DNA of 59,325 nucleotides, from contig JACRGH010000052.1 of the NCBI GenBank assembly GCA_016212375.1, positions 1 through 59,325 on the forward strand, read 5' to 3'. Each line of letters opens with the position of its first letter. Position 1 is the first letter of the stretch. Positions 19,123 to 47,365 of the stretch are shown in pieces. The stretch is from Microcaldota archaeon. GTDB taxonomy: Archaea > Micrarchaeota > Micrarchaeia > Norongarragalinales > Norongarragalinaceae. The notes under the pieces were generated by a model. The model saw only the letters and a program-made list of their open reading frames with translations, was not told the origin of the DNA and made no database searches. Made by a program: the position numbers and the translations under genes.

Positions 19123-19695
19123 TTAAAGCGGCTTGACGTACAACAAAACGTCCTTCCCCCAAATCTTCTGAGCCAACTTGCCCCGTTTGACAAAGCCGGC
19201 CTTTTCATAGATACAGATGGCCGTTGCGTTGCTTTCTTCCACCAACATCACCACCTGCGTACACCCCGTGGTTTTGGCCTCGCTCAACGCGGCCGCCAAT
19301 AACTTTTTGCCCCAGCCATGGCCTTGAAGTTCGGGTACCACGCAAAGCCCGAGTATTTTGGCGGTTTTCTGGGCCGGGAGTGGGGGTTTTTCGGTTATTG
19401 CGTGACGGGGGTTGGGCTCGTCATTGAGCTCAAAGTCGATGAAACCGACCAATTCGGCAGTTCCATCGACGTCGGACCGTTCCAAGACAAAATAAACCAC
19501 TCCCGTTTTAATCCGCTCAAAGACGTGGTCCGCGCTGATGTGGATGTAGGAAAAGAAGCGTTTGGTCAACTCGGACAAGCGGACCGAGTCGGAGGTGACG
19601 GCGCGGCGTATGTGAATTGGGGAAACCAATGCGGTTTCCAATGACACGTTGGAAGGTGGGCGATAATCCAATTCGTTTGTATTTAAGGGGTCCAT
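19123..19695 (-). CDS. GNAT-family N-acetyltransferase
   Basis: ILGLCVVPELQGHGWGKKLLAAALSEAK...IYEKAGFVKRG. Confidence 0.85.
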   Translation of the reverse strand: MDPLNTNELDYRPPSNVSLETALVSPIHIRRAVTSDSVRLSELTKRFFSYIHISADHVFERIKTGVVYFVLERSDVDGTAELVGFIDFELNDEPNPRHAITEKPPLPAQKTAKILGLCVVPELQGHGWGKKLLAAALSEAKTTGCTQVVMLVEESNATAICIYEKAGFVKRGKLAQKIWGKDVLLYVKPL

Positions 19696-20279
19696 GGGGT
19701 GCCGATATTCCAATCGGTTTCAAAAACCGACTCAAATGAATTGGCAACGTCGATGTTTTCAATGCTTACGGCCGCCTCGCGATTCAATTGCATGGCATGG
19801 CGGGACCAGTTGGTTGAGCCGACAAAGACGGCTTTTCGGTCCACCACCATGAATTTCGCGTGGGTAGAGGCAAAAGAACGGCTTGCCCAGCGTACGCGCA
19901 CGCCGGATTGGACCAGCTTTTCGGCGACGAATAAGTTGGAGTCGATTTTGGGATCCATCAACACGCGAACCGTTACACCGCGGGCCGCAGCCATTGCCAG
20001 CGCGACCTGAAGGGGGGTGTACGAAAATTGGTAAAGCATCACATCCAAACGGGCGTCCGCCGAGTCAATCAAATCCAAAAGGACCGGTTCGCTCTGGCCG
20101 GGCGAAAAAACCGGACGGACGAGCGCTGCATCCGCATTCAGCGAAGCGGAAGGCAACGGAACGAAGGCGTGGAAAATAAATCCGGCAATAAAAGAAAGGG
20201 CGGCCACGACGACCAAAAGAACCAGCGGGCGCTTGGGGCCGATCAAAACGGGGGAAAAACCGCGGGAAAACGTCGACAC
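19683..20279 (-). CDS. Membrane-anchored phospholipase D-like (single HKD) nuclease
   Basis: N-terminal TM; HAKFMVVDRKAVFVGSTNWS. Confidence 0.88.
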   Translation of the reverse strand: MSTFSRGFSPVLIGPKRPLVLLVVVAALSFIAGFIFHAFVPLPSASLNADAALVRPVFSPGQSEPVLLDLIDSADARLDVMLYQFSYTPLQVALAMAAARGVTVRVLMDPKIDSNLFVAEKLVQSGVRVRWASRSFASTHAKFMVVDRKAVFVGSTNWSRHAMQLNREAAVSIENIDVANSFESVFETDWNIGTPWTP

Positions 20280-20538: not shown

Positions 20539-21414
20539 CTAATACGACGCCTCGATGTACGCGCCCACGCCCAACAACACGAACGAGAGGACCAGCAACA
20601 AAAGCACTTCAAGAAATACGTGGAAGAACAAATCCGGTTTGGAAAAGCCGCGTTTCATGAATTCCATGGAAAACAGGCCGCCGGCGATGCTGGCAAGGAA
20701 GTACGCCGACATCTCGAAGATGCCGTGGGGCAACAAGTTCAGAAAACCGATGGCAGCGCCCATGATGCCCATCTGATGCACCTGGCCGCCGATGACCACG
20801 CCGATGATGGAGGCGTTCCACAATAAAAGATAAATCGAGCCGATGCCGTACACCAGTGAAAACAAAAGCATCAGGCCCATCACTTGCAGGTTATGCTCCA
20901 GAAGGAACCAAAACGTGCCTTCTTTGGCCCCCAGGCCGATGTTGACGACCTGTCCTTGGATGGCGGATACGGAGCCGCGGATGAAGCTGACTTCCTTGAG
21001 CTGGTCGGCAAACAACGCATTGGAGCCCGGAAGTTGGCGGCCCATGAACTCAAACGAATCCGGGGGCAAAATGGCGAACCAAAACGTGTATGCCAATGCC
21101 GACCCGATGAAAAAAAAGGCGAATACTTCCCATAAATCGATGTTGTGGCTGAACAGGCGGAGTTTGCCGGTTCCTTTTTTCCAGGCATCCACTTCGGATT
21201 CCTCCAATTCCTCCTCGCGCATCAGCACCATCCAGACCAACGGGATCAGGGGGACCATGGCGAAAACGATGATGGAGCCTTGGATGGGTAAGTACATCTC
21301 GACAAAGACGCCGAAGGAGACGAAGACGAACGTCGCCAGTATCAGGGACCACGGCTCCTTGGTGGCTTGCGTTGGGGACACTAAAAAGTCCAAGACCATA
21401 AGGGGACTAAGCAA
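20539..21414 (-). CDS. SpoIIM-family (stage II sporulation protein M) membrane protein
   Basis: HNIDLWEVFAFFFIGSALAY...GLLLFSLVYGIGSIYLLLWNASIIG...LLPHGIFEMSAYFLASIAGG. Confidence 0.88.
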   Translation of the reverse strand: MLSPLMVLDFLVSPTQATKEPWSLILATFVFVSFGVFVEMYLPIQGSIIVFAMVPLIPLVWMVLMREEELEESEVDAWKKGTGKLRLFSHNIDLWEVFAFFFIGSALAYTFWFAILPPDSFEFMGRQLPGSNALFADQLKEVSFIRGSVSAIQGQVVNIGLGAKEGTFWFLLEHNLQVMGLMLLFSLVYGIGSIYLLLWNASIIGVVIGGQVHQMGIMGAAIGFLNLLPHGIFEMSAYFLASIAGGLFSMEFMKRGFSKPDLFFHVFLEVLLLLVLSFVLLGVGAYIEASY

Positions 21415-21461: not shown

Positions 21462-22967
21462 TTACCGGAATCGCACCATCGCCAAAGACAGCAACAGCAC
21501 CAGGCCCAACAACAGCCCGTCATATCGGCGTGCCACGACCATTCCATCGGACGGGGGTTTGCCGACGGTGACCACCGAATCGGCAAATGCCGCGGAAAGT
21601 CCGTCAGCGCCTGGAAAGCGGGCCAGAATCCGGTACGCGCCCGGTTGGTCGAACGTAAGGGCGGAATAGGCAAAACCGTCGGAATCCGTGAAAAGGTCCT
21701 CGCGGTTTCCGGCGGATTCCAGGACCAGCGGTTGACCGGAAAGGGGGTCACCAAAAAAGTTGCGCAAGGATAGACGGACTGGAACCGTTTGGAAAGGATG
21801 CACGAAATTGGGAGTGGCCCGGATGGCCAATCGGACCGAGGCGTGACCCGAGACATTCACGGAAAACCCAATGGCATCCCCGAATACGTCGTAAGCCGTG
21901 ACGGTCCAGCGATGCGTATTTGCGGACGTGCGGGAATCCAAGGATTGCTCAGCACGGATGGCCCATGAAAAGTTTTTTGCCGCGAACTTTTCCACCCGGT
22001 CGGATGCACGGTCATCCGGCGTCAGGAAAAACGTCGAATCGTTTGCAAGTGTCCAAACCGACCAGGCATCCGCGGAATCCGAGCGGATCTCAAAATCCAG
22101 ATACCGGCGCCTACCCCGGATTGACCCGTCCAAACTCGACGACACCCGATACGACGTCGTATTGGAAAACAAGTAGGCCTGAAGATTGGGCAAAAATACG
22201 CTGTAATTTGAAATCCAGGGGTTCAAAAAAACGGTTCGATTCACCGGATGGACTATCGGGGCGACAACAGTCGAGGAGGTTGCAACATACGGATAATCCA
22301 ATACGCGATGCGTGGTTTCCACCCAGGTCTGAATGTTGCAACTGCCCCAAAAACAGGCGGTACGGCACATCCGGATTTCATCATCGGTGTAATAATGGAG
22401 CGTCAGATTGCCATCCAGCCATACGGACAGCGGCTTTTTGGACGAAGAAAGCTCGGATACCGACCAACCCACGCTTACCGGGCTTTTTTTCACTTCCACC
22501 GACCGCACGCCCCCGTCCGAGAGGGAGTGAAGCCAAAATCGCCCCGACGTCCCGGACAACACCATGCGCGTGCGGTTCGCACCGCAACTATAACCCAAGG
22601 CCCGGTCCCAATCGTAATTGGATTGGGCATCATAGGTCCAGCCCCACAACACCGAGGTGGGATGGATGGCCGAAATCGTTTGGTCAACAGACGGATAGAC
22701 CGAATGGAGCGACACGGTGAATGAGCGAAGCGGGCTGTCCTTTGGGCGATTGCCTTCCAAGGGCAACCGGACGCCTAAAAGTTTCAAACCAAGTGCGTCA
22801 TTGTGTTCCGCAACCTGCGCATGCGGCGGATCCGGATAGAATCCGGAGGAAAAAGGTAGTGCCAAAAAAAGGATTAAAAAGAAAAGCGTACGGGAATTTT
22901 GGAACGGCCGGCATTGGGAAGCGGCACGATTGGATATGCCGGAAAAAAAGCCAACCAAATCCATCAC
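21462..22967 (-). CDS. Large exported protein with C-terminal TM anchor, T4SS-like cluster
   Basis: Hydrophobic N-terminus, Ig-like/sequon-rich body, C-terminal LLLGLVLLLSLAMVRFR. Confidence 0.65.
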   Translation of the reverse strand: MMDLVGFFSGISNRAASQCRPFQNSRTLFFLILFLALPFSSGFYPDPPHAQVAEHNDALGLKLLGVRLPLEGNRPKDSPLRSFTVSLHSVYPSVDQTISAIHPTSVLWGWTYDAQSNYDWDRALGYSCGANRTRMVLSGTSGRFWLHSLSDGGVRSVEVKKSPVSVGWSVSELSSSKKPLSVWLDGNLTLHYYTDDEIRMCRTACFWGSCNIQTWVETTHRVLDYPYVATSSTVVAPIVHPVNRTVFLNPWISNYSVFLPNLQAYLFSNTTSYRVSSSLDGSIRGRRRYLDFEIRSDSADAWSVWTLANDSTFFLTPDDRASDRVEKFAAKNFSWAIRAEQSLDSRTSANTHRWTVTAYDVFGDAIGFSVNVSGHASVRLAIRATPNFVHPFQTVPVRLSLRNFFGDPLSGQPLVLESAGNREDLFTDSDGFAYSALTFDQPGAYRILARFPGADGLSAAFADSVVTVGKPPSDGMVVARRYDGLLLGLVLLLSLAMVRFR

Positions 22968-24958
22968 CGCCGAGCCCGCGCTTTATTTGCCATGTATTTT
23001 TCAAGTTCGCATAAATCCATCGCCGACTTGACCCCGATGATCCGCACCCGGCCCACGGGCCCGTCCGCGTCCAAATTAAAACGGCACCCATACCCGTGGC
23101 ACGTATATCGGTTTTTTTTCCGCGTAAAGCGCCAACCGGCCAAAGTCAGCGCATCCGCAACGTGGCGGTTGAAAAAAGCGGCCTTGGCATCGGCCTTGGT
23201 TGCAAACCAGCCAACGGGGGCGGACAGGCCGCGTTCGACGTAAAGAAAGCCAGAGTCTTGCGCCTGCAACAAAAACAACCGGGCCGCATCCTCGGTCAGA
23301 ACCAACGTCGGATCACCCAGTACCGAGATGACGCCGGAACAAAATTCGGTAATATGAAGCGGCATACGCGTCCAACCGAAACGGGCGTTGGTGGATTCAA
23401 AAACCAAGTCCAATTTTTGCACATCCAAGGGGATTTTATGCGAACGGGGTGGAGCGGATGCCAACAAACGGATGCGCAACGGCCGGCTCCGCGCCATATG
23501 CCACGCGCCCAAAAAAAGCAACAGTCCGGATGCGGCCAACATCCGGTCGGGCCATGTGGACAAAAAGGAGGATTGCACCTCATAATCCAACGGCACGCGG
23601 ATTCCATCCCCTAAGTCCAAAAAGCCGCGGTTGGCGCCGGAGGCCATATCCGGATCCGGCAATTTGAAATTACCCTCGGAATCCGCATACACCGTCTGGT
23701 TTTTCCAAATGAGTTTCGCACCCCCCGCAGAATGCGCGCCTTGCCAAAGGCGGCCGTAAACGGTTTTGGACGCCCCATCGACGTACCGCACCTCCACACG
23801 GTAGGCGTAAACCTCCAATGCCGAATACGCATTGACTCGGTCCGACCCCATGACTTCCAAAACATACATGCCCGGAGCAAGGGGACCAGGCACGGGTTGG
23901 GAGTGCCAAAACGGCCCAACCGGGAATACACCCAACGGCATCCGTGCCACCTCTTGGCTAGTGTTGGACATAAAAAGCGAGAATGACGCGGCGGTTGTCA
24001 GGTTCGCCAACACGGACACGAAAAGGGTTCGATTGAAGGGCATCCGGCTTGGATGGACCACGCGTAACGCGGGCATGGAAAGGGCGACCGAATGCCGGGT
24101 CCGGCGTCCGGCCGAATCGCGTATCCAAAGCACGGCATGGCTGGGCGTTCCGGAAAAGGCAGGTGAAAAAATAGTCCGGATGCCGGACACGTTGCCTGAA
24201 AAGAAAACTCGTTGCAGCCAGGACGCGTTAAGATACATATCGGAAAAAACACGGGCCGCAACTTCCGCATCGGCAAAGGAAACATCCAAAAGGCCAGGAT
24301 GGACGGCCAAATATCCGCGGCCTCGCTGGAAAACCTGCCATCCGTCCATCCGACGTAGCGTACCGTTGCGTGCGACCAGCCGGTAATCGGAAAGCCCGTC
24401 GCCGGTTTTTTCAAACCCAAGTCCCAAACCTGCGCTTTGGATGTTCCAATCCGGATTGTCAACCAGGCGGCCATCATGGCGCACCATTGAAAAAGGCAAA
24501 CCGGAATACAGGACGACCCATCCACGGTCCAACAATCGGGAAAGCAGTCCATCACGCAGGAGACCGGATGGAATGGCCGACGCGACCACGACCAGCACGG
24601 ACGGATCCATTGCATCCAACCGGACAAGCGTGCGGGCATCCACCTCGCCGGATGGAATGGATTCATTGGAAAGCAGACCGGCCAATGATTTGGAAAAACG
24701 ACCGAAACCGTTTTGGTCCGAATCGTTGAATACCAACACGTTAGAGGGCGACGGATGCGAAAAAAGGGTGCCCTGGACGTCGGCCGTTCCGCTTGCATTA
24801 ACGACAAAAAATGCGACGGTTGCGTTGCCATCCACCCAGGCTATGCCAGACTTTTCCAAATCGGCCGTTCCGGGCGTTTGCACGACATGCACGGGCTGCA
24901 CGAAAAACCATAGGCCGACGAGTACCAAGCCCACAGCCAACAATACCACTCGCCGCAT
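22964..24958 (-). CDS. Membrane protein, large extracellular region plus cytoplasmic C-terminal domain, T4SS-like cluster
   Basis: N-terminal TM VVLLAVGLVLVGLWFFV, internal TM MLAASGLLLFLGAWHMA; ATGA overlaps with neighbours. Confidence 0.7.
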   Translation of the reverse strand: MRRVVLLAVGLVLVGLWFFVQPVHVVQTPGTADLEKSGIAWVDGNATVAFFVVNASGTADVQGTLFSHPSPSNVLVFNDSDQNGFGRFSKSLAGLLSNESIPSGEVDARTLVRLDAMDPSVLVVVASAIPSGLLRDGLLSRLLDRGWVVLYSGLPFSMVRHDGRLVDNPDWNIQSAGLGLGFEKTGDGLSDYRLVARNGTLRRMDGWQVFQRGRGYLAVHPGLLDVSFADAEVAARVFSDMYLNASWLQRVFFSGNVSGIRTIFSPAFSGTPSHAVLWIRDSAGRRTRHSVALSMPALRVVHPSRMPFNRTLFVSVLANLTTAASFSLFMSNTSQEVARMPLGVFPVGPFWHSQPVPGPLAPGMYVLEVMGSDRVNAYSALEVYAYRVEVRYVDGASKTVYGRLWQGAHSAGGAKLIWKNQTVYADSEGNFKLPDPDMASGANRGFLDLGDGIRVPLDYEVQSSFLSTWPDRMLAASGLLLFLGAWHMARSRPLRIRLLASAPPRSHKIPLDVQKLDLVFESTNARFGWTRMPLHITEFCSGVISVLGDPTLVLTEDAARLFLLQAQDSGFLYVERGLSAPVGWFATKADAKAAFFNRHVADALTLAGWRFTRKKNRYTCHGYGCRFNLDADGPVGRVRIIGVKSAMDLCELEKYMANKARARR

Positions 24959-26493
24959 CAGGGGACCAACACCAATTCGGCCAACCGTTTGCCGGACGGA
25001 AGCGAGAGTGCAAAAAGGCCGGCCATGGCGTGCGCCACTTGGTCATCGGGCAGTCCGGCGGTTTTGAATTTCTGCCGGATGGCCTCGCGCGATAAACCGC
25101 ATTCCTGCAATGCTTGGGCAAAATGGGCGGCGTCCACCACATGGTTGCGTCGGTTCAAAAATGAATCCAACACGGCCAATCGATCCTCCCCGACACCGTC
25201 CGCACGCAATCCGTCGAATACCGCACTTTTTTCCAACGCCCATTCCATACCGGTTCCCTCCAACACGATCCACTGCAACAGCCCTTCCCCGTCCACGCGC
25301 TCAAGGAAAAACAAATCCGAGCGGGCGTGGTCCGCCCACTGCAACGCAACGGCGCATTGCCCTTGGCGCAACTGGGCCAAATCGTTCCGGACGTCCGGGC
25401 CAAAACGCAACGAGCGCTGCAAATAATCCAGCGAATCGGAAAAGGGCGTGCGGAATACGAACAACGAGCCCACGTTGGAAAAAATCACCGGACTCAAGTC
25501 AGTCGGGTTCTGCGACGCGACCATTAGACCGAACGCGTATTTGCGGCCCTCCCGGACAATGGCGACCGGATCACCGTCTTCCTGGCAGATTTTCCACGCT
25601 TCATCCATGACCACCATCAAATCCAAGTTCCGTCCCTCGCATGGTCCCCGGGCCCGCATGGCCTCCCGCACGAACTGCACGATGCAAAGCCCGGCTAACG
25701 AACGCATCGATTCGCTGGGCAGCCCGCTTAAATCGACGCAGGACAAACCGGATTTCAACAAGGCATCCAGCCGGAACGACGTGGGGCGCGCGAAAAAATC
25801 GGCACCAGGCAAGCATAAGGGGCGCAACAGATGGTAGGCGCTTTGGACCACGGAACGCTCAGAAAGGTTTTGTTTTTTAGCCTGTAGTTTGAGCCACGCC
25901 AGGACATCCAGCAAGGTGGGCGCGCGCCGTGACGAGCGCTGGGAGGGGGAAAAACGGCCAAGCGCATAGGCCATTTCCACGGCCAGGCGGACCCATTGGC
26001 GCTCTTTTGGAAAATCCTTCAAATCGGTCAACAGACGCAAGGAATCCACCACTTGCGAGGTGCGCATGGACGGGCTCATGCCGCCCAAATCCAGCAGGTT
26101 CAACGACTCGGGGCCCAATCGGACCACCATGCCGCCGGACTGCCGCACCCACGGCACGTATTCGCCGGACCAATCGATGATAAGCGCCCGCGTGCCAAAG
26201 GAGACATTGGCCCGAGTCAAGAACGTCTTGACGAAAAAACTCTTCCCCGAACCGGACATGCCGATGACGGCGATATGCGGATTGGACAGCGGCGAGAACG
26301 ACCAGGAAAACGGCACGGCCCAATGGCGGGTCCGGGCCACGCGAACGCCGGCGCCATCCGTCGGCATGAGCCAATCGGCTTTGGGTTGCGGCGGGCGCAC
26401 GAAAATAGGCCGACTACGCAGGGACCCTGATAAAAGTGGCGCCGATTGGTCCATACCCAATAGACGTTCAATGACGGCCAACAAATCCAACAC
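24958..26493 (-). CDS. VirB4/HerA-like (CedB-like) ATPase
   Basis: Walker A VIGMSGSGKSFFVK; Walker B LMVVMDEAWKI; GRKYAFGLMVASQNPTDLS. Start set at GTG (VLDLLAVIERLL) because the upstream extension overlaps the next gene. Confidence 0.85.
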   Translation of the reverse strand: MLDLLAVIERLLGMDQSAPLLSGSLRSRPIFVRPPQPKADWLMPTDGAGVRVARTRHWAVPFSWSFSPLSNPHIAVIGMSGSGKSFFVKTFLTRANVSFGTRALIIDWSGEYVPWVRQSGGMVVRLGPESLNLLDLGGMSPSMRTSQVVDSLRLLTDLKDFPKERQWVRLAVEMAYALGRFSPSQRSSRRAPTLLDVLAWLKLQAKKQNLSERSVVQSAYHLLRPLCLPGADFFARPTSFRLDALLKSGLSCVDLSGLPSESMRSLAGLCIVQFVREAMRARGPCEGRNLDLMVVMDEAWKICQEDGDPVAIVREGRKYAFGLMVASQNPTDLSPVIFSNVGSLFVFRTPFSDSLDYLQRSLRFGPDVRNDLAQLRQGQCAVALQWADHARSDLFFLERVDGEGLLQWIVLEGTGMEWALEKSAVFDGLRADGVGEDRLAVLDSFLNRRNHVVDAAHFAQALQECGLSREAIRQKFKTAGLPDDQVAHAMAGLFALSLPSGKRLAELVLVP

Positions 26494-26545
26494 CCCTTTT
26501 TTTAGTTGCCAACAAGGCCCACCCGTCCTATCGTGCGTCCATCGA

Positions 26546-27337
26546 CTATGCGGACCCCAATCCGTCGCGTGCGATGGCCACTTTCCAATCCAGGCATCGG
26601 CGCAGCGCATCCCCATCCAGCGGCCGGACCTGGGCATTGAGCGCATGCGAAAGAACGGCACGGAGTTCGCGGGCCTGCAAGCGGGCGGACTCCGCGGCTT
26701 GCTCATGCGTTGGCCCGGCGGCCGTGGTTGAGACGTAATACACCGCATCCAACGGACGCTGGCCCGCCGACAATTGGTTGAGCACGCGGGTGGCCATCGC
26801 TTTTTTCCGTTCGGCCGACGCAAGGGCCGAAGCGTCAGGCGTTGGCGATTGTTTGATGCGGCTGATGGAAAGCTCCGCCTCCAGTCGCTGCGTCAATACC
26901 GATTCCCGGTATTTTTCCAAATCAATCGGATACACCAGCAAACCGAATTGGGCGGGAAAGGACAGGCCGCAAAGGGCCTTTTCAAACGCCGCGCCATAGG
27001 AAACAGATGCTTCCGCCGGATGGCGCGACGGTGAAAAATGCACGTCGACGTCGAGATATGCCGAGGCTAAATATCGGTCGCCGTCGTGCAGGACGGCCAC
27101 GTCGCGGTCCAGGACCCAACCGCCGCGGGTCTCGACCACCGAAAGGCCCTTGAGAAAATAAGGCAATAGGACGCCGCCGAAGCGCTGGATGACCACTGAC
27201 AAACACAACAAAACGGCGGACAAACCGATGAGCCATGCATTGGCCAGGACCAAGGAGAAGACCAGAGCGATCAGACCGCCGCCCAAGCTTATCAAAACGG
27301 CCTGGCGTGCGTTCAAATCCAAAACACCATAACCCAT
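26546..27337 (-). CDS. Two-TM protein with VirB4 N-terminal-like domain (VirB3-VirB4N-like)
   Basis: Two N-terminal TMs then FEKALCGLSFPAQFGLLVYPIDLEKY...AAESARLQARELRAVLSHALNAQVRPLDGDALRR. Confidence 0.6.
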   Translation of the reverse strand: MGYGVLDLNARQAVLISLGGGLIALVFSLVLANAWLIGLSAVLLCLSVVIQRFGGVLLPYFLKGLSVVETRGGWVLDRDVAVLHDGDRYLASAYLDVDVHFSPSRHPAEASVSYGAAFEKALCGLSFPAQFGLLVYPIDLEKYRESVLTQRLEAELSISRIKQSPTPDASALASAERKKAMATRVLNQLSAGQRPLDAVYYVSTTAAGPTHEQAAESARLQARELRAVLSHALNAQVRPLDGDALRRCLDWKVAIARDGLGSA

Positions 27338-27347
27338 TACGAATAAT

Positions 27348-28283
27348 TCAACTCCAAAGGACCACGTCGGATGCCAACACGCGGTACAACGAACGGGTGA
27401 ACAAGAAAACGACGGCTAGGTTGAACAGCGGGAAAAACGTGGTCTGGACCGTCAAATCGGCCACTAATTTGGCCAATGGGGCGATTGCGCTAAGGGCAAG
27501 GTTCCACACGCGTTGCGTAATCAGGGACGCGACAAAGGATGCTACGGCTGCCGGATTGAGAAGATCCAACGAGGAAAGGGAATATTTGGAATTGAAATCC
27601 TTCAGACTATCCAAGCGGGCATCGATGGATTCGTTGGTCTTTTCCACGGCCGCGGCATTGAACACGTACGTCAAAGGCAGGACGAAATACAGCCCGACCG
27701 CCAAGGCAATCATGAACGCGCCGACCGGCCGCGTGAGAACGAACGTGCGTAAGACCACGCCGACGGGCAAAAAATAGTACATCATCGTGGCCGAAATGAA
27801 CGTGAACAACACGCGCTGCACCTCGTTGAACAATTTGGTCCATTCCAATATCGATAGGATGAAATGCACCTCGTGCAGGGCCTCGTTCAGCCCGGCCAAT
27901 GGTTTGTCACGCACCTCCACCACCTCGGCATTGACGCCGACTTCGATTTCGCTCAGTGCGGCCACCACCAGGCCGAAAAGCGTCGTCGCACTGGAGATGG
28001 TTTCAATCCTCGAGTTGACCTCTTCCAGATAACGGTCGGCAAAAGCAATCGGTTCCTCGCCTCCGGACAACTCCGACGCAAAAGCTGAAATGCCCACCGC
28101 GGATACCAACAAGACGCCCACCAACAGTGCGGACACGACGGCTTGGAAAAATTCCGCTTTGGCCCACACCCGCAAGCCGCGCAGGTCGAAAATCGCACCC
28201 AGCGCGAAGACCATGGCAGCCAACAACATGCTGAACGTGGCGGCGGCAACCGCGATGGGTTGCCAGCCGTCGACAAAGTCCAT
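27348..28283 (-). CDS. Polytopic membrane protein, VirB6/TrbL/CedA-like
   Basis: About 6 TM segments, directly next to a VirB2-like gene and a VirB4-like gene. Confidence 0.65.
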   Translation of the reverse strand: MDFVDGWQPIAVAAATFSMLLAAMVFALGAIFDLRGLRVWAKAEFFQAVVSALLVGVLLVSAVGISAFASELSGGEEPIAFADRYLEEVNSRIETISSATTLFGLVVAALSEIEVGVNAEVVEVRDKPLAGLNEALHEVHFILSILEWTKLFNEVQRVLFTFISATMMYYFLPVGVVLRTFVLTRPVGAFMIALAVGLYFVLPLTYVFNAAAVEKTNESIDARLDSLKDFNSKYSLSSLDLLNPAAVASFVASLITQRVWNLALSAIAPLAKLVADLTVQTTFFPLFNLAVVFLFTRSLYRVLASDVVLWS

Positions 28284-28288
28284 GGGGC

Positions 28289-28528
28289 TCAGATTCCGGT
28301 GAGCCAGTTGACCAACGTCGGCGCCACGTTGCCGATGACCACGGCGATGGCGCCACCGATGCCGACGCGGTGCGCCCACGCTTTCATCCGCGCATTGACC
28401 TCATGCGAGCCGGCCATAGCGCCGAAAGCATACAGACCTCCTGCAAGAAGGATGGCAAAAAGCCCCAGCGTCGGCAACAACGTCTGCAACAAGGTCACGA
28501 GCTGATGCACCTGCGTTTCAATCCCCAT
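28289..28528 (-). CDS. VirB2/TrbC-like (TedC-like) pilin candidate
   Basis: 79 aa, two hydrophobic helices separated by a short charged loop (SHEVNARMKAWAHR). Confidence 0.65.
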   Translation of the reverse strand: MGIETQVHQLVTLLQTLLPTLGLFAILLAGGLYAFGAMAGSHEVNARMKAWAHRVGIGGAIAVVIGNVAPTLVNWLTGI

Positions 28529-28738: not shown

Positions 28739-28960
28739 ATGAAAACAAAAAAAAGGAAAACACTCGGAAAAAAAATACCGACCCGGACAAAACCCATGTT
28801 CACCGACATCGTCAAACTGGGAAAGAAAGGCCAGATTACCCTCCCGAAGGAAATACGGGAGGATGAAGGCTACCGGGAAGGGGACGAATTCAAGCTGACA
28901 CATATGCCGGGTGGCGACGTGCTATTGCAAAAAAGAAACGGGCAGTCACCGCTGGATTGA
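28739..28960 (+). CDS. AbrB/MazE-type antitoxin, with in-frame TGA before its C-terminal tail
   Basis: TDIVKLGKKGQITLPKEIREDEGYREGDEFKLTHMPGGDVLLQKRNGQSPLD*; same frame continues LSEFLDTVPKFDWSKAWKEVEEERNRDR* to 29047. Confidence 0.85.
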   Translation: MKTKKRKTLGKKIPTRTKPMFTDIVKLGKKGQITLPKEIREDEGYREGDEFKLTHMPGGDVLLQKRNGQSPLD

Positions 28961-29043
28961 TTGTCCGAATTTCTCGATACAGTGCCCAAATTTGACTGGA
29001 GCAAGGCGTGGAAAGAAGTGGAAGAAGAACGTAACCGTGACCG

Positions 29044-29448
29044 ATGATGATATACGCGGTAGACACCTGGTTTATCCTGTCCATTTGGAACAAGGAGCCC
29101 AAAAGCCAGGACACGTTGAATGAAATCGGCCAAGGCAAAGCACAGTTGGTCATTTCCTACGCGGCCGTAGCGGAAGCCGCGCGGAAACTGATGCAACAAG
29201 GCAACGGATGGCAAAGTATCGAAACGCTTTGGTCAATGCTTGAATCGTTTGAAAAAATCCGGTTCGTCCAATTGGACAAGACCATCGCGCTTGAAAGTGC
29301 GCGCATCAGCATGAAGTATGGAATCCCGCTGATTGACGCCATCATCGCCGCCACGGCGAAACTTTCCGGATGCGACGTCCTTTTATCGGCGGATGAGGAC
29401 ATGGCGGTTTTGGCAAAGAAAAAATACCTCAAAGTCCAGTCGTGGTAA
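29044..29448 (+). CDS. PIN-domain toxin (VapC-like)
   Basis: MMIYAVDTWFILSIW...YGIPLIDAIIAATAKLSGCDVLLSADEDM. Confidence 0.88.
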   Translation: MMIYAVDTWFILSIWNKEPKSQDTLNEIGQGKAQLVISYAAVAEAARKLMQQGNGWQSIETLWSMLESFEKIRFVQLDKTIALESARISMKYGIPLIDAIIAATAKLSGCDVLLSADEDMAVLAKKKYLKVQSW

Positions 29449-31407: not shown

Positions 31408-31785
31408 TCATTGCTTTGGCCGCAAAAACTTTACGCCAGAAAGCCCGGAAAAGTCCGAATCCGACGTGAGAAGCTCAAGACCATTGGTTTGTGCCGTCGC
31501 ATAAATGAGCGCACCCGTGGTCGACAGCCCTTTGGAATGGGAAACGCGAGCGGCCATTTCGCAGGCGTCCGAAACAAGCGGAAGCATATCAAATTGAAGT
31601 AACCGCTGGCGTAGGATTTCAAAATCCATTCCGCTTACCTTTTTGTGAAGATGGCGCAACGCTTCAAAATACGTCACGATGCTGATTCCACCGTCCCCGG
31701 ACTCCAAACGTGCATCCGTTTGGGGGCTTGTCCGATTCTGGAGGTAGTCGATTAAGATAGAGGTATCAGCCAAAAACCCGGTCAC
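31408..31785 (-). CDS. PIN-domain toxin (VapC-like)
   Basis: MTGFLADTSILIDYL...ALIYATAQTNGLELLTSDSDF. Confidence 0.9.
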   Translation of the reverse strand: MTGFLADTSILIDYLQNRTSPQTDARLESGDGGISIVTYFEALRHLHKKVSGMDFEILRQRLLQFDMLPLVSDACEMAARVSHSKGLSTTGALIYATAQTNGLELLTSDSDFSGLSGVKFLRPKQ

Positions 31786-31978
31786 GTTTATCCCTCACGA
31801 ACGGTTCGGTCCCCGTTAATATGCCCTTGAGGTCCTTGATGAGCAAAAAATTACTCCGCTTTGCCAAGGCATTCAACGTCTCATCATAACTCCGAGCACC
31901 CAACGCATGCCGGAAGGCGTCAATCTTATCCTTGGTCTCTTTTTTTACCGGGATATTCACATACACAGAAACCACCAT
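31766..31978 (-). CDS. VapB-like antitoxin
   Basis: MVVSVYVNIPVKKETKDKIDAFRHALGARSYDETLNALAKR; overlaps the PIN gene; TATAAATA about 30 nt upstream of this ATG. Confidence 0.75.
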   Translation of the reverse strand: MVVSVYVNIPVKKETKDKIDAFRHALGARSYDETLNALAKRSNFLLIKDLKGILTGTEPFVRDKRDRVFG

Positions 31979-32014
31979 TGCAACTAATATTGCAATAGAT
32001 ATTACAATATTTAT

Positions 32015-32039
32015 ACCTTGGGTAGAAAAAAGTTCCACC
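32015..32039. promoter_or_regulatory. Second copy of the 25-bp palindromic motif, directly upstream of the vapB TATA box
   Basis: accttgggtagaaaaaagttccacc, one difference from 28575-28599. Confidence 0.8.
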
Positions 32040-32121
32040 CACGCCCGGTAAATACGACTCGCCCGGAATAATCTAAACCAACGATTTAAGTATCTTTTCC
32101 GGCAAACTTTTCTTCCATCCT

Positions 32122-32259
32122 GCAGGGGTGGCAGAATCCGGTATCGCGCTAGACTCGAAGCCTCTCTTTTCAACCAAACGCCCAAATGGGTCAAAAAAAG
32201 ATTGCCGCGAGCCATCTAGTGTTCTTCGGAACTTCCGAGTTCAAATCTCGGCCCCTGCG
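32122..32259 (+). tRNA. tRNA-Ser(CGA) with 54-nt intron (32160-32213) at position 37/38
   Basis: Acceptor GCAGGGG/CCCCTGC, G discriminator, anticodon stem CTAGA/TCTAG, variable arm GTTCTTCGGAAC; BHB core CTCG/CGAG with bulges AA^G and CC^A. Confidence 0.92.
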
Positions 32260-34192: not shown

Positions 34193-35542
34193 TTGGATTT
34201 GAAAGACCCACTTGGCGCGTTTGAGTCCCTGTACGACCAATGCCAAAACTGCTTTTTGTTGGAATCGTTTGAGCAGGACGGCACGCTTGGTCGGTTTTCC
34301 TATGTGGGCTTCAACCCCAAAACCACGGTGCAAGTCAAGGACGGCGTCATCCGCGTCGGCACCGAGGAATTGGAACAAGACCCCTTCGCGTTCTTGAAAA
34401 GCTATTGCACCTCAAGCTCCCGACAGGGTTTCCGCGGCGGATTGGTCGGTTACCTCGCACACGATGCCATCCAGTACGTCGAGGATTTCAAGCCAAAGCG
34501 AGGCACCTTTGCAGACATGGAATTCGGCCTTTACCTCGATGGCTTGGTCTTTGACCACCTCAACCACACGGCGCGCTACGTCACATATGGCGAAAATCGC
34601 TTGGACGAATTGCAAAAATTGCTATCCCAGGGAAAAGTTGACCCCACAATAGATCAGAACGCAACCGAACAACCAACGGCCAAACTCTTCGACCCTTTTG
34701 TCAACCAGAACGCATATTGCCAAAGCGTTCTGCAAGCACAGGAGTCCATCCGTGCCGGCGATGCATTCCAAGTGGTCCTATCCCGGAAATTTCCAGTCCG
34801 CATTCGCGGCTCTAAGATGCCATTTTACAAGCGGCTTCGTGCGACGAACCCATCCCCTTACCAATACGTGTTGAAAATGGGCCAGCGGGAAATCATCGGC
34901 TCAAGCCCCGAGATGCTCATCCGGGTGGAAAACAAAAAAGCCACCACGTTTCCCATTGCCGGCACCCGGCCCCGCGGACGCAACCCAGACGAGGACGCCC
35001 GATTGGCGGCCGAACTGAAAGCGGACCCAAAGGAAAACGCGGAACACGCCATGTTAGTGGATTTGGCCCGAAACGACATCGGCCGCGCATCGAAGCCGGG
35101 CACCGTCAAAGTCGAACGTTACGCCGAAATCAAGAAATTCAGCCACGTCCAGCACCTGGTGTCCGAAGTCAGCGGCACCCTGAACGGGACGGCCGCCGAC
35201 GGCTTAAAATCCGTGTTTCCGGCCGGCACCCTATCGGGCGCGCCGAAGCTTTCCGCACTCAAAATCATCGACCGACTTGAACCGCAAGCGCGCGGGCCCT
35301 ATGGCGGTGCCGTGGGATTTTTGTCCCTCGACGGAAGCGGCGATTTTGCCATTTCCATCCGCACGCTGTTTTGCGATGGGGAAGCCGGATTCGTGCAAGC
35401 CGGAGCCGGGATTGTCCAGGATTCCGTTCCGGAAAACGAGTTCCAAGAGACGCAAATCAAAGCACAGGCGTTGTTGGATTGTTTGAAACCGCAAGGAAAA
35501 GACGAAAACGAAAAAACAAAAACGCGAAACGCCAAGTTGTGA
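34193..35542 (+). CDS. trpE: Anthranilate synthase component I
   Basis: GSSPEMLIRVENKKATTFPIAGTRPRG, DLARNDIGR, FPAGTLSGAPK; TTG start is uncertain. Confidence 0.93.
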   Translation: MDLKDPLGAFESLYDQCQNCFLLESFEQDGTLGRFSYVGFNPKTTVQVKDGVIRVGTEELEQDPFAFLKSYCTSSSRQGFRGGLVGYLAHDAIQYVEDFKPKRGTFADMEFGLYLDGLVFDHLNHTARYVTYGENRLDELQKLLSQGKVDPTIDQNATEQPTAKLFDPFVNQNAYCQSVLQAQESIRAGDAFQVVLSRKFPVRIRGSKMPFYKRLRATNPSPYQYVLKMGQREIIGSSPEMLIRVENKKATTFPIAGTRPRGRNPDEDARLAAELKADPKENAEHAMLVDLARNDIGRASKPGTVKVERYAEIKKFSHVQHLVSEVSGTLNGTAADGLKSVFPAGTLSGAPKLSALKIIDRLEPQARGPYGGAVGFLSLDGSGDFAISIRTLFCDGEAGFVQAGAGIVQDSVPENEFQETQIKAQALLDCLKPQGKDENEKTKTRNAKL

Positions 35543-35545
35543 ACA

Positions 35546-35620
35546 CCATGGCACCCCGACTCCCCATATTGGACAACTTCGACTCATTCACCTACAACCT
35601 AGTCCAATTATTCCAAACGG
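35546..35620 (+). repeat. Upstream copy of the trpG 5' end (tandem repeat, second copy 35683-35757)
   Basis: 75 bp, two substitutions from the second copy; period 137 bp. Confidence 0.95.
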
Positions 35621-35676
35621 TCGCCCCGGGGGAAGCATACCCCCTGGCCCGGCCTGGGCCTCGCCCCCTTCCGTGA
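35548..35676 (+). pseudogene. Truncated trpG' decoy ORF (MAPRLPILDNFDSFTYNLVQLFQTVAPGEAYPLARPGPRPLP)
   Basis: Starts like trpG then runs through a GC-rich hairpin insert to a TGA. Confidence 0.85.
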
Positions 35677-35682
35677 CGAAAA

Positions 35683-35757
35683 CCATGGCACCCCGACTCC
35701 TCATATTGGACAACTTCGACTCATTCACCTACAACCTAGTCCAGTTATTCCAAACGG
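35683..35757 (+). repeat. Second copy of the trpG 5' repeat (start of the intact gene)
   Basis: See 35546-35620. Confidence 0.95.
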
Positions 35758-36257
35758 CAGGGGCTGAATGCCTCGTATTCCGCAATACCGTTTCGTTCGA
35801 CCAAGTCCTTCGGTTGAAGCCGGACGCCGTCGTGATTTCTCCCGGCCCTGGAACCGTGGAAAATGCCAAAGATTTCGGCGTGTGCGCCCGCGTCATCAAA
35901 GAATTCGAAAAACCGATTTTGGGAGTCTGCTTGGGCCATCAGGGCATCGCCTACGCGTATGGCGCCAAGATCGTGCGGACCACGCCGGTGCATGGAAAAA
36001 CCAGCATCATCACGCACGATGGCACCGGCCTGTTTGCGGGCGTGAAGAATCCGCTCCAAGTGGCCAGATACCACTCTTTAGTCGTAGACCCCGCCTCGGT
36101 GCCGGAAGTCCTGACGGTCACAGCCAAGACTCAAGACGGCCAAATCATGGCACTCCAACACAACGAAAAACCGCAATACGGCGTGCAATTCCATCCCGAA
36201 TCATTTATCACGGAAGATGGAAAGAAAACGGCGGATAATTTCCTGAAACTGATTTGA
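35685..36257 (+). CDS. trpG: Anthranilate synthase component II (glutamine amidotransferase)
   Basis: ILDNFDSFTYNLVQ, SPGPGTVENA, GVCLGHQGIA, QFHPES. Confidence 0.95.
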   Translation: MAPRLLILDNFDSFTYNLVQLFQTAGAECLVFRNTVSFDQVLRLKPDAVVISPGPGTVENAKDFGVCARVIKEFEKPILGVCLGHQGIAYAYGAKIVRTTPVHGKTSIITHDGTGLFAGVKNPLQVARYHSLVVDPASVPEVLTVTAKTQDGQIMALQHNEKPQYGVQFHPESFITEDGKKTADNFLKLI

Positions 36258-36312
36258 AACCCAACCGGACGAAATTGAGTCAAACACATCAACACATCAA
36301 AAGGTTCCAAAA

Positions 36313-37308
36313 ATGCAAACCCCACTCACCCGACTCCAAAATAACGCCGATTTGGACGAAAAACAGGCCCAGGAGCTTGCGGACGGTTTCTTTGACGGCA
36401 CGTTGGACGAAGCCCAAATGAAAGAATCATTGCTTGCGCTCAATGCCAAAGGCATTACCGTGGACGAGCTCGTAGGATTTGCCCAAAGCATGCGACAACA
36501 CGGAGTGCATATCCAAACGAAAACGCCGTGCGCCGACACCTGCGGCACCGGCGGCGACGGCCTAAAGACGTTCAACATCTCCACCGCGGCCGCATTTGTG
36601 GTCACGGCATGCGGCGTCTCCGTTGCAAAACACGGGAACCGCTCGGTGTCAAGCCAAACCGGCTCGGCCGACGTCTTGGAAGCATTGGGCGTGCGCGTCA
36701 ACTTACCGCCGGAAAAGACAACGCAGATGATTGATACCGTCGGATTCGGCTTTTTGTTCGCCCCAACCTACCATCCGGCGATGAAGCGCGTAGCACCGGT
36801 GCGAAAAGCATTGGGCGTCAAGACGATTTTCAACATGCTTGGGCCCCTGACGAACCCCGCAAGCGCCGCGTACCAAGTCATCGGCACCTACAACCCCGAA
36901 TGCCAGGACAAAATGGCGCATGCCGTCACACGCGTGGGCATCCGCCGGGCCTTGGTAGTGCACGGCAACGGCATGGATGAAGCGGGTTTTGGCATCAGCC
37001 GCATCTTGGACGTAACCGGTGGAAAAATTGAAGAAAGCAATTTGGATGCCGCCTCGCTGGGCATTACCGGAACGATTACGGATTTGACGGTACGGAATGC
37101 GGCAGAGAGCGCCACCAAAATCCGGAAAGCCTTGAGCTCCGCGGACAAAATGGAGACGCAAATCGTCTGCCTCAACGCGGCATTGGCATTGGTCGCCGCA
37201 GGTAAGGCCAAGGATGCCCATGAAGGCTTTCACCAAGCGCGAAAAGCGGTGAGCACCGGTTGGGCCATGAAAAAACTGCAGGAAAGCGTGGAGGCCGGAC
37301 GCGAATGA
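36313..37308 (+). CDS. trpD: Anthranilate phosphoribosyltransferase
   Basis: DTCGTGGDGLKTFNISTAAAFV, KHGNRSVSSQTGSADVLEALG. Confidence 0.95.
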   Translation: MQTPLTRLQNNADLDEKQAQELADGFFDGTLDEAQMKESLLALNAKGITVDELVGFAQSMRQHGVHIQTKTPCADTCGTGGDGLKTFNISTAAAFVVTACGVSVAKHGNRSVSSQTGSADVLEALGVRVNLPPEKTTQMIDTVGFGFLFAPTYHPAMKRVAPVRKALGVKTIFNMLGPLTNPASAAYQVIGTYNPECQDKMAHAVTRVGIRRALVVHGNGMDEAGFGISRILDVTGGKIEESNLDAASLGITGTITDLTVRNAAESATKIRKALSSADKMETQIVCLNAALALVAAGKAKDAHEGFHQARKAVSTGWAMKKLQESVEAGRE

Positions 37309-38126
37309 ATTTTTTGGACGACGTGTTGGATGGAGTTCGGCAAAGCCTGGTTGACGGCTACTATGAAGTCGGAAAAATGGAACCAGATGCAGAATCGCGA
37401 ACGCAAGGAAAAAAATCACTCAAAACCGAATTGCAACAAAGATTCAGCATTATTGCCGAAATCAAGCCGCGCTCGCCCACCGCCGGAGTGCTGTACCAAG
37501 GCTCAGCCGCGGATTTGGCCAAAACCTATGCCGAAGCGGGAGCAGGCGCATTGAGCGTGTTGTGCGAGTCGAAGCGCTTCAACGGCCGACTTGAAAATCT
37601 GACGGAAGCGAAAACAGCAGCGACGCACTTGCCCGTTTTGGCCAAGGATTTCGTAATTTCGAAAAAACAGCTGCAGGCCTATGCCGCGCATGGCGCAGAT
37701 GCCGCCCTTTTGATTTACGAGCTTTTCGAGCACAAAAAGACCAACGTGCCATTGGAAGCTATGATTGACGCGGCGCACGAATTGGGACTCGAAGTCTTGT
37801 TGGAAGTGCACGGTGCCAAAGACCTGGACGAGGCGCTCAAGAGCAAAGCCGACGTCATCGGCATCAACAACCGGAATTTGGATGATTTGTCGCTCAACAT
37901 GCTTCATTTCCAGAACGTGTTATCGGAAAGCGGCGTGGACATTGAAAAAATAACGGCCGAAGGAAAAGCCCTCATCGCCGAAAGCGGATTTGTTAGCGCC
38001 GCGGACGTGCAGATGGCCCGCGATGTCGGATTGAACGGCATCCTAATTGGCACCGGCCTTCTGAAGAACAAAGACCCCGCCTTCGCATTGAAACAACTCA
38101 CAAAAATAACGAAACAAACGAGGTAA
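37305..38126 (+). CDS. trpC: Indole-3-glycerol phosphate synthase
   Basis: [41 protein letters not shown]-type overlap with trpD. Confidence 0.94.
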
Positions 38127-38134
38127 ACAGCAAA

Positions 38135-39343
38135 ATGACATATTTTGGAGAATTTGGCGGACTGTTTGTTCCGGAAACACTGGTCAGCCCGCTTCAAGCG
38201 ATTTCAGAGGCGTACGAAAATGCCAAAAAAGATCCGGCGTTCCAAAGTGAGTTCCAACGGCTTTTACGCGAGTACGCGGGACGGCCGTCCATGCTGTACT
38301 TTGCAAAAAACCTATCCGTTAAGTACGGCTGCCGCATCTACCTCAAACGGGAGGACTTGCTGCACACCGGCTCGCACAAAATCAACAACGCGTTGGGACA
38401 GGCCTTGCTTGCCAAATCCATGGGCAAAACGCGCGTCATCGCGGAAACCGGTGCGGGACAGCATGGCGTGGCGTGCGCCACGGTCTGCGCCCTGATGGGT
38501 TTGAAATGCGTCGTGTACATGGGCTCGGAAGACGTCATCCGCCAAAACTTGAACGTCCAGCGGATGCGCCTATTGGGCGCCACCGTGGTGCCGGTCGAAT
38601 CCGGAACCAAAACCTTGAAAGATGCCATCAACGAAGCCCTCCGGGACTTCGTGGCGAATCCCGACAGCTATTACCTCATCGGCTCAGCCGTGGGCCCGAC
38701 GCCGTATCCGGAAATGGTGCGGGATTTCCAGCGGGCCATCGGCGATGAGACCAAAGCCCAAATCCTCAAAGCCGAAGGGCGGCTTCCGGACGCCGTGGTG
38801 GCCTGCGTGGGCGGGGGCAGCAATGCGATAGGCATGTTTTATTCGTTCAAAGACGACCAAAGCGTCAAAAAAATCGGCGTGGAAGCATATGGCGCGGCAT
38901 CGTTGGGTTACGGCCAGACGGGCGTGCTGCACGGTGCGAAAACCAAAATTTTGCAGGACAGCGACGGACAAATTTCCGGCACGCACAGTATTTCGGCCGG
39001 ACTGGATTATTCCGCCGTGGGGCCGGAGCATGCTTTTTTCCAATCGGCTGGAATCGCGAAATACGTTTCCGCCAACGACGAGGACGCGCTTTTCGGCTTC
39101 AAGGAACTTTCCCTACAAGAAGGCATCATTCCGGCACTGGAATCGGCACACGCCGTGGCCCATGGCCTCAAAGTGGCCAAAACCATGACCAAAGACCAGA
39201 TTCTCGTCATCAATTTGTCCGGACGCGGAGACAAAGATGCGCATGCATTGGAAGCTCTTGGAAAAGAAAAAGAGCCGTCGGCGTGGGGAAAAAATGAAAT
39301 AACCAAAATAAATGCCAAAACAACGGAGGCGAACAATCAATGA
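38135..39343 (+). CDS. trpB: Tryptophan synthase beta chain
   Basis: [43 protein letters not shown]. Confidence 0.96.
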
Positions 39344-40116
39344 AATTCTCCGAACTTTTCAAAACCAAAAAATTTGCCTTCCTACCATACGTTTGCTTAG
39401 GTTACCCCACACTCGAAAAAAGCCTGGACCTAGTGCGGGCCTTGGAACCGTACGCGGATGGCTTTGAGCTCGGTATCCCTTTTTCCGATCCGGTGGCCGA
39501 CGGACCCGTTCTGCAGAAAGCCGCCCAGAGTGCCCTAGAGGCCGGTTTTAAAGTCAGCCAGACGTTTGACGCGGTGCGGGTGGTCCGCCGGTTCACGCAA
39601 AAACCAATCGCCATCATGACGTACTTGAATCCGGTTTTGGCCCACGGATTACAGCGTTTCGTTGACGAGGCGCATGCCACGGGAGCCGATGCGCTCATCA
39701 TACCGGATGCGCCGATGGAAGAAATCGGACCGGTCCAGGCCGCGTGTGCCGGAAAACTGGAAGTGCCGTTATTTGTCACCCCCACCACGCCGAAAGCGCG
39801 CGCCGGGAAAATCGCCCAAAGCGCACAAGGATTCATCTACGGCATTGCAATCAAAGGCGTCACAGGCGCACGCAAAGAAACCGAAATGGACGGCATGGGT
39901 GCCGACGTCAAGGCATTGGTGGAAAAAACGTCCGACATGGGTTTCCAGATTCCGGTGGTCTTTGGTTTCGGGATTTCAAACGCAAAGCATGCAAAAGCGG
40001 TCCAAAACGCCGGAGCCGCCGGTTTCATCATCGGTAGCCGCATCGTCCAGGCCTACGAGGAAGACGGATTGGAGGGCGTGAAAACATGGGTACAATCGCT
40101 AACCTTAAAAACGTGA
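39340..40116 (+). CDS. trpA: Tryptophan synthase alpha chain
   Basis: [33 protein letters not shown]. Confidence 0.94.
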
Positions 40117-40162
40117 ACCGGGAAGTAATTGAAAAGACAACGAAATCAGCGAGTTAGTTCCC

Positions 40163-40228
40163 ATGAACCAACGCAAAAACCAATGGTCGTATCCGACGTT
40201 TGGCTTTAGCTTTGGCTATTACCAATAA
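40163..40228 (+). CDS. Candidate aromatic leader peptide MNQRKNQWSYPTFGFSFGYYQ
   Basis: 21 codons with 1 W, 3 Y, 3 F, located between trpA and the DAHP synthase gene; below the length cutoff of the ORF track. Confidence 0.55.
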   Translation: MNQRKNQWSYPTFGFSFGYYQ

Positions 40229-40230
40229 TC

Positions 40231-40321
40231 TTGGGAAAAACCCGCGCAAACTGAAAAAAAGTGTATCAATCGGTTTCAATCTTCGGTTTGCAGCCGCCAG
40301 GCCATTGCGGGTTTCTTCCAA
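40231..40321 (+). promoter_or_regulatory. Candidate leader RNA structure following the aromatic micro-ORF
   Basis: 40231-40245 pairs with 40307-40321 (15 positions, 1 mismatch, 1 GU), enclosing 40246-40255/40282-40291 (10 bp, 1 GU); CCGC at 40294-40297 can compete for GCGG 40307-40310. Confidence 0.5.
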
Positions 40322-40440
40322 AAACAGCAAAGAAATAAGACCAACGGAAAAAATGGGAAAAAAGCAGAAACCATATTGAAAACATCAAAATAAGAGTACA
40401 AAAACTAAAAAAATAATCCGAACGAACAGGTGTTACGACT

Positions 40441-41454
40441 ATGATCATCGTCTTTGAACCGTCCGCGAAACACGAACAAATCCAGCACGTCTTTGACCGC
40501 CTTATCGAATGGGGTTTCAACCCGGTACTTCAAGAAGGGGAAGCCACCAGCATCGCGATTACCGGAGACACGTCCTCGCTGAAGTCCGAGACGCTAGAGG
40601 CCTTTGACGGAGTCCAAAAGGCCGTCCGCCTGACCCAGCCGTACAAACTGGTGGCCCGTGAGTTCAAACCCGAAGGCACCATTATCGACATCGACGGCGT
40701 CAAAATCGGCGGAAAACATTTCACCATGATTGCCGGCCCCTGCAGTGCGGAAAGCGAAGCCCAACTTCTGACCACGGCTCACGCGGTTAAGAACGCGGGC
40801 GGCAAAATCCTGCGCGCCGGCATCTACAAACCCCGCACATCCCCCTACGAATTCCAAGGCATCGGCGAAAAAGGATTGCCCTGGCTAAAAAAAGCAAAAG
40901 AGCAGACGGGATTACCGGTGTGCACAGAAGTGATGGACCCAAAAGTTCTGGACAAAGTCAAGGACGTCGTGGACATCTACCAAGTCGGTGCGCGCAACAT
41001 GCAAAATTATGATTTGTTGCGGGAATTGGGCAAGTCCAAAAAACCGGTATTGCTCAAACGGGGCCTTTCCGCCACGCTCAAGGAATTGTTGTTGGCCGCG
41101 GAATACATCATGTCCTCCGGCAACCATGACGTGATGTTGTGCGAGCGGGGCATCCGCACGTACGAAACGGCCACCCGCTTCACCTTGGACGTCGGCGCCG
41201 TTCCCGTGCTCCGCCACGACACGCACCTGCCCATTATCGTGGACCCATCCCACCCCGCCGGCAAGCGGGCATTGGTCGGGGCATTGGCCAAAGCGGGCTT
41301 GGCAGCGGGTGCCGATGGGCTCATCGTGGAAACGCATCCAGATCCGGAGCGTGCTTGGTCCGACGCGGCGCAACAATTGACGTTCGACCAATTCGGACAA
41401 CTGATGACCGAACTTCGGCCCATTGCCACAGCCGTGGGACGGACGATGGATTGA
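40441..41454 (+). CDS. 3-deoxy-7-phosphoheptulonate (DAHP) synthase with N-terminal regulatory domain
   Basis: MIAGPCSAESEAQLLTTA, GIYKPRTSPYEFQG, PIIVDPSHPAGKR; SD AGGTG upstream. Confidence 0.95.
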   Translation: MIIVFEPSAKHEQIQHVFDRLIEWGFNPVLQEGEATSIAITGDTSSLKSETLEAFDGVQKAVRLTQPYKLVAREFKPEGTIIDIDGVKIGGKHFTMIAGPCSAESEAQLLTTAHAVKNAGGKILRAGIYKPRTSPYEFQGIGEKGLPWLKKAKEQTGLPVCTEVMDPKVLDKVKDVVDIYQVGARNMQNYDLLRELGKSKKPVLLKRGLSATLKELLLAAEYIMSSGNHDVMLCERGIRTYETATRFTLDVGAVPVLRHDTHLPIIVDPSHPAGKRALVGALAKAGLAAGADGLIVETHPDPERAWSDAAQQLTFDQFGQLMTELRPIATAVGRTMD

Positions 41455-41580
41455 TATCACAGCTAAAAAAATGAGAAAAAAGGGGCAATGAAAAAACAAA
41501 AAAAAGGAAGATCGGAAAACCAAATTGGAAAATAAAAAAACGAATGGAAAAAAAACTTGAAAAAAGGATTGAAATCAACC

Positions 41581-43385: not shown

Positions 43386-43502
43386 GAACCTGAGAAAAGG
43401 AAAGCGTTGAAAAAATTAAAACGGAAAAAAAGATGAATCCTAAAAAAAAACGAAAAAAAAAGATTCGAGAAATAAAAAATCCGACGAAGAACGAAAACCG
43501 CC

Positions 43503-47364: not shown

Positions 47365-47365
47365 G

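Follow-up and report, generated by a model that had tools for sequence, protein, structure and literature searches.

Ced and Ted are the closest described systems; they have been reported with homologues of VirB2, VirB4 and VirB6 only (PMC9905601) and represent a reduced set for DNA import (PMC9905601, PMC11868833). A VirB4 N-domain divided between proteins has a precedent in CedB/CedD (PMC11868833) and another in Gram-positive plasmids. In a Pontibacillus plasmid (L163, 4440-7119), a 274-aa gene of its own occupies the N-domain position ahead of the bacterial VirB4 ATPase, a split like that in the locus described here. A role in host interaction has been proposed for the nanohaloarchaeal Ig/VirB4 giant proteins (PMC10266531) and is conceivable for the type IV secretion system (T4SS) of Patescibacteria. 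A search of the open-access literature returned no earlier account of the present operon in Micrarchaeota or DPANN.

The window (the whole stretch of 59,325 nucleotides that was analysed) belongs to a micrarchaeote, a DPANN host. It contains six tightly packed genes on the minus strand (28528-21462), which are followed on the same strand by two further genes.

28289..28528, minus strand: VirB2-like pilin P0001, 79 aa, two hydrophobic helices (Pfam and iterative search)
27348..28283, minus strand: VirB6/CedA-like polytopic membrane protein P0002 (homology of family F0)
26546..27337, minus strand: two-TM protein P0003, 263 aa, with a soluble part like the VirB4 N-domain (hhalign, conserved position)
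24958..26493, minus strand: VirB4/CedB-like ATPase P0004, Walker A GMSGSGKS (Pfam, NCBIfam)
22964..24958, minus strand: P5 (P0005), 664 aa, membrane-anchored surface protein (family co-occurrence, AF2)
21462..22964, minus strand: P6 (P0006), 501 aa, membrane-anchored surface protein (synteny)
20539..21414, minus strand: SpoIIM-family membrane protein (Pfam SpoIIM, 3e-15; same position in genomes G001 and G002)
19683..20279, minus strand: membrane-anchored PLD-family protein with a single HKD motif (PLDc_2, 2e-26; same position in G001 and G002)

All six ORFs of the operon were found in the sequence with the order and coordinates given in the earlier note. Their tight packing was equally confirmed, with intergenic gaps of about 5, 10 and 52 bp followed by overlaps of a few bp. 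The start of the VirB6-like gene was corrected to ATG 28283, and that of P6 is probably ATG 22964. The ATPase ORF opens at TTG 26823; homology begins only near 26493-26454, past the end of the VirB4-N gene, and the start codon is uncertain between GTG 26493 and ATG 26454. A programmed frameshift joining P0003 and P0004 at an A7-G4 stretch was considered and rejected, since the two are separate genes in the relatives too. Two sister species of the genus have orthologues of all six genes, identically arranged. For every gene dN was well below dS: dN/dS ran from about 0.05 for the pilin to about 0.45 for P6 versus the more distant species, ratios that are rough because dS is partly saturated. These values indicate selection at the protein level and, together with the conserved order in the sister species, identify the six ORFs as real genes. 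The first five of them have relatives across Micrarchaeota.

In each of the three species of the genus, P6 is followed by the SpoIIM-family and PLD-family genes. Both may possibly be associated with the operon, the synteny being limited to the genus. The PLD-family protein is nuclease-like and predicted to lie outside the membrane (DrmC and NucT models match under the cut-off); it could process DNA at the cell surface. Upstream of the operon, two small gene pairs (28739-29448 and 31408-32215), each with a PIN-domain-like protein, have a toxin-antitoxin-like appearance. Further away, an extended series of genes for tryptophan and shikimate/aromatic biosynthesis was recognised by eye (34193-48595), which is unexpected in a reduced DPANN genome. 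An exported protein of 661 aa with N-rich repeats and the look of a parallel beta-helix (NosD-like in appearance) is encoded at 120-2105.

The ATPase P0004 matched Pfam AAA_10 (3e-12) and the HerA central domain (6e-12). It had originally been described as VirB4/HerA-like, and the ranking of NCBIfam models sustained this: CedB was the best curated match (7.5e-15), followed by CedD and VirB4, with the repair HerA models lower. P0004 is not CedB itself, as its 54.6 bits are far under the 700-bit equivalog cut-off. When the window ATPase was used as lone query, no match was obtained in the search of genome contigs, and an alignment query worked; the named relatives recovered by alignment search were mostly labelled Micrarchaeota.

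P0003 is encoded directly upstream of the ATPase, a position conserved across loci. Comparison of its profile by hhalign with Gram-positive VirB4 N-domain/TrsD proteins (A8) gave a probability of 85% (E 6e-6), against 0.1-0.2% for two control families from the same operon, which upholds the proposal of a VirB4-N-like domain. Searches of PDB and Pfam with the sequence profile returned nothing useful. With the AF2 model (pLDDT 87), the top Foldseek match among 350,542 PDB chains belonged to the R388 T4SS; the matched chain has 711 residues, a length that would fit TrwK/VirB4, and the E value of 0.11 is not significant by itself. It is possible that P0003 is the functional counterpart of VirB3 plus TrsD/VirB4-N.

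Taken alone, P0001 matched Pfam TrbC (8e-4) and T4SS_pilin (2e-3), both under the curated cut-off. Iterative searching gave 28 matches in the ATPase loci; signal peptides are present in many of them, and some form tandem arrays. In the aligned family, 13 of 23 members matched T4SS_pilin and 7 matched TrbC/VirB2, bearing out the assignment as a VirB2-like pilin. Nothing significant was obtained with the pilin profile in PDB (TrwL, E 0.32). The family of P0002 (F0) comprises 203 ORFs in 46 loci, with up to six in tandem. Its VirB6/CedA-like character, also suggested at the outset, was supported at the family level: two of 25 members matched the NCBIfam CedA model (best 5e-6, L097:4365-5489), and P0002 by itself matched nothing, this model included. 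Five genomes have a match to the CedA model no more than about 10 kb away from the ATPase. The VirB6 profile matched neither single bacterial or haloarchaeal VirB6 proteins nor, significantly, any PDB entry.

P5 and P6 were first described as exported, membrane-anchored and apparently novel proteins. The membrane anchoring holds for both, but P5 is predicted to be bitopic rather than simply exported. Its model (AF2, pLDDT 79, pTM 0.58) suggests an N-terminal TM helix, an ectodomain made of an alpha/beta part plus Ig-like sandwiches, a TM helix at 469-489 and a cytosolic C-terminal domain resembling a winged helix. Only generic Ig/beta-sandwich matches were returned by Foldseek. In the P5 alignment, four of the seven invariant columns (W529, P533, E538 and W584) come after the second TM helix of the predicted structure. 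P6 displays a signal peptide, an Ig-like ectodomain and a C-terminal TM helix, and follows P5 in both sister species, in G008 and in other members of the class at P5-P6 loci. Both proteins diverge fastest in the operon, with 42-44% identity to the nearer sister species versus 94% for the pilin; identity of P6 to the two species was 44% and 32%. Such rapid divergence is expected for contact surfaces.

Nor is P5 a local novelty; it is a widespread core component. ATPase matches at E<=1e-3 were found in 80 of 98 relatives, and in 72 of these the level of the match set it apart from HerA; the P5 family was present in 71 of 96 genomes. Co-occurrence of strong ATPase matches and P5 matches was tallied by hand for the 96 genomes in both sets. 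P5 was present in 69 of the 70 ATPase-positive genomes, the exception (G050) being 61% complete with a truncated ATPase. Among 25 ATPase-negative family- or order-mates, no confident P5 was detected (one 72-residue match at 2e-4). In one genome (G075), P5 sits at the end of a contig and no good match to the ATPase was obtained. As P5 tracks the ATPase across genomes, it is regarded as a core subunit and not a passenger.

Clustering of 100 loci revealed a conserved operon in two layouts. Type A, which is also that of Ca. Micrarchaeum sp. A_DKE, whose genome is complete, has one or two VirB4-N genes followed by the ATPase, a Zn-finger/2TM protein, a coiled-coil winged-helix protein and, last, a long P5. 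Ahead of VirB4-N there may be pilin and VirB6-like genes, the latter in up to six copies; at many type A loci the VirB6 genes stand apart. Type B is compact, with single pilin, VirB6 and VirB4-N genes before the ATPase, followed by a winged-helix protein, a shorter P5 and P6. Locus L152 (pilin-VirB6-VirB4N-ATPase-wHTH-P5-P6) has exactly the order of the window plus the winged-helix gene, and L159 and L148 have the type B order, partly rearranged. The window thus carries a type B locus that lacks the winged-helix gene; no copy of this gene was detected in its genome, in its two sister species or in G008. In the ATPase tree the window clade fell outside a 34-row clade holding the type A loci (support 92/98); the outgroups were only plasmid VirB4s and the cell's own HerA, on long branches, and the placing of the window clade is approximate. 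A lone gene of about 100 aa after the ATPase in type A loci (L061:11519-11818 and similar ORFs) resembles the C-terminal helical domain of the ATPase, a part that is fused in the window. At seven other loci (L149-L151, L153, L155-L157), P5, often with P6, is located apart from VirB genes and comes after an exported protein of about 270 aa and one of about 460 aa. The latter was considered as a second ATPase and rejected, as it matched none of the family models compared; by eye it reads like a phenylalanyl-tRNA synthetase subunit (PheS-like).

The absence of a relaxase and a coupling protein, claimed in the earlier note, holds in the window and, for VirD4-type PF02534 and for PF03432, the one relaxase family searched, in the 82%-complete genome; a relaxase and a VirD4-type coupling protein are marks of a conjugative T4SS. 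ComEC was not found in that genome either; these absences are soft at 82% completeness, and they are expected for Ced/Ted, with their VirB2/B4/B6 homologues only (PMC9905601). The operon has housekeeping flanks and conserved synteny within the genus. The matches in viral contigs were nine, all weak, partial and distant, and no plasmid match covered 80% of the query. A mobile element therefore finds no support, and as judged from this sequence context the cluster is a conserved chromosomal operon.

Across the loci compared, the predicted VirB2-like pilin, VirB6/CedA-like subunit and split VirB4 show conservation together with P5 and P6. VirB4 proteins power the handling of pilins and the transport of the substrate; the channel through the membrane is lined by VirB6, and VirB2 builds a fibre. 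With moderate confidence, the operon is proposed to encode a minimal, domesticated type IV secretion apparatus of Ced/Ted type, located on the chromosome and probably for contact-dependent uptake or exchange of DNA. Its component identities appear well supported by sequence comparison, while we infer substrate and direction. The N-domain protein P0003 would dock the hexameric ATPase beneath the VirB6 channel and anchor it where VirB3/VirB8 are absent. The ATPase may then extract pilins into a short conduit, drive the substrate, or both. P5, with its ectodomain outside and its winged-helix-like domain inside, and P6 would together meet a partner cell at the surface, and could link this contact to the motor. 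The most likely substrate would be DNA from a neighbouring or host cell, used for repair, for recombination or as nucleotides; import is favoured because VirD4, the PF03432 relaxase and ComEC were not found in the 82%-complete genome. Against this explanation count the lack of the system in most family- and order-mates and the absence of any linked recombination gene at the locus. A bolder version, which we judge rather unlikely as a whole, is that Micrarchaeota possess a class-wide type IV apparatus with an obligate P5. The ectodomain of P5 would then meet the partner cell, its cytosolic domain would report to the motor or dock it in place of the VirB8/VirB10 scaffold, and the apparatus would serve to take DNA from the hosts.

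The main rival keeps the same machine and changes its cargo: a host-interaction apparatus delivering proteins or DNA into the host cell, which we hold possible, if doubtful. It owes this rank to the nanohaloarchaeal SPEARE-type proteins, where an Ig ectodomain, a TM segment and a VirB4-like ATPase are combined beside a second VirB4 (PMC10266531), and to Patescibacteria, which retain VirB2 arrays, VirB6 and VirB4 (PMC12102498). Cultivated DPANN archaea live attached to their hosts (PMC11291902), and the ectodomains of P5 and P6 are Ig-like. Nevertheless, a PF02534 coupling ATPase, present in conjugative T4SSs and in most of those that secrete proteins (PMC12102498), was not found in the 82%-complete genome; no effector genes were recognised, and the absence of the system from many family- and order-mates weighs here as well. 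It is improbable that the system serves adhesion only, with VirB4 assembling a VirB2 fibre, P5 and P6 as adhesins and no transfer of macromolecules. Conservation within the operon is indeed highest for the pilin, which at other loci forms arrays, and P5 and P6 resemble surface proteins, but a system that builds only a fibre would not be expected to retain VirB6 channel proteins, present in up to six copies in type A. ATPases of family PF00437, to which the motors of type IV pili belong, are moreover encoded elsewhere in the genome. Finally, the reading as a DNA repair ATPase of HerA type whose membrane neighbours are unrelated, a case that the earlier note had tied to a nearby nurA, is rejected as highly improbable despite the match to the HerA central domain and the weak ones to HerA models, since the canonical NurA-HerA-Mre11-Rad50 operon lies on a separate contig (C44) and its HerA, opposite to P0004, scores best to HerA models, while P0004 prefers CedB and its relatives adjoin P0003-type genes in nearly all complete loci.

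A conserved machine in most of the micrarchaeal genomes sampled is a concrete candidate for gene acquisition by DPANN archaea or for action on their hosts. A Ced/Ted-like apparatus would reach beyond Crenarchaeota, where it was first described, and P5, P6, the Zn-2TM protein and the coiled-coil wHTH protein are new candidate T4SS subunits.

Compared with known systems, the operon resembles Ced of Sulfolobales (CedA, CedA1, CedA2, CedB, CedD, CedE) in being chromosomal, in its VirB2-, VirB6- and VirB4-like parts and in a VirB4 N-domain divided between proteins, with CedB as best curated match of its ATPase. Unlike in Ced, the N-domain protein of the window has no ATPase domain and carries two TM helices, and the descriptions of Ced consulted name no counterpart of P5, of P6 or of the Zn-2TM and coiled-coil wHTH proteins that occur in type A. 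Ted of Thermoproteales (TedA, TedB, TedC) is likewise a reduced chromosomal VirB2/VirB6/VirB4 set; TedB, however, is described as a VirB4-like ATPase that is not split, and the micrarchaeal system has extra surface proteins. Several Gram-positive conjugation modules (TrsD-TrsE, CD1110 type, pBS72) show a small protein in the N-domain position followed by the VirB4 ATPase, in line with the hhalign match, but they are located on plasmids with peptidoglycan hydrolases nearby, and several are typed as conjugative with relaxases. The T4SS of Patescibacteria is similarly kept in a lineage of small genomes, with VirB2 arrays, VirB6, TrsD and VirB4; it differs by its own VirB3/PrgI homologues, and no P5 or P6 has been described there. 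The nanohaloarchaeal SPEARE/giant Ig-VirB4 proteins, also from DPANN, couple an Ig-like ectodomain to a VirB4-type ATPase, with a second VirB4 next door. There, one giant protein combines ectodomain and ATPase; in the micrarchaeal system the P5 and P6 ectodomains and the ATPase come from separate genes, alongside a pilin and VirB6.
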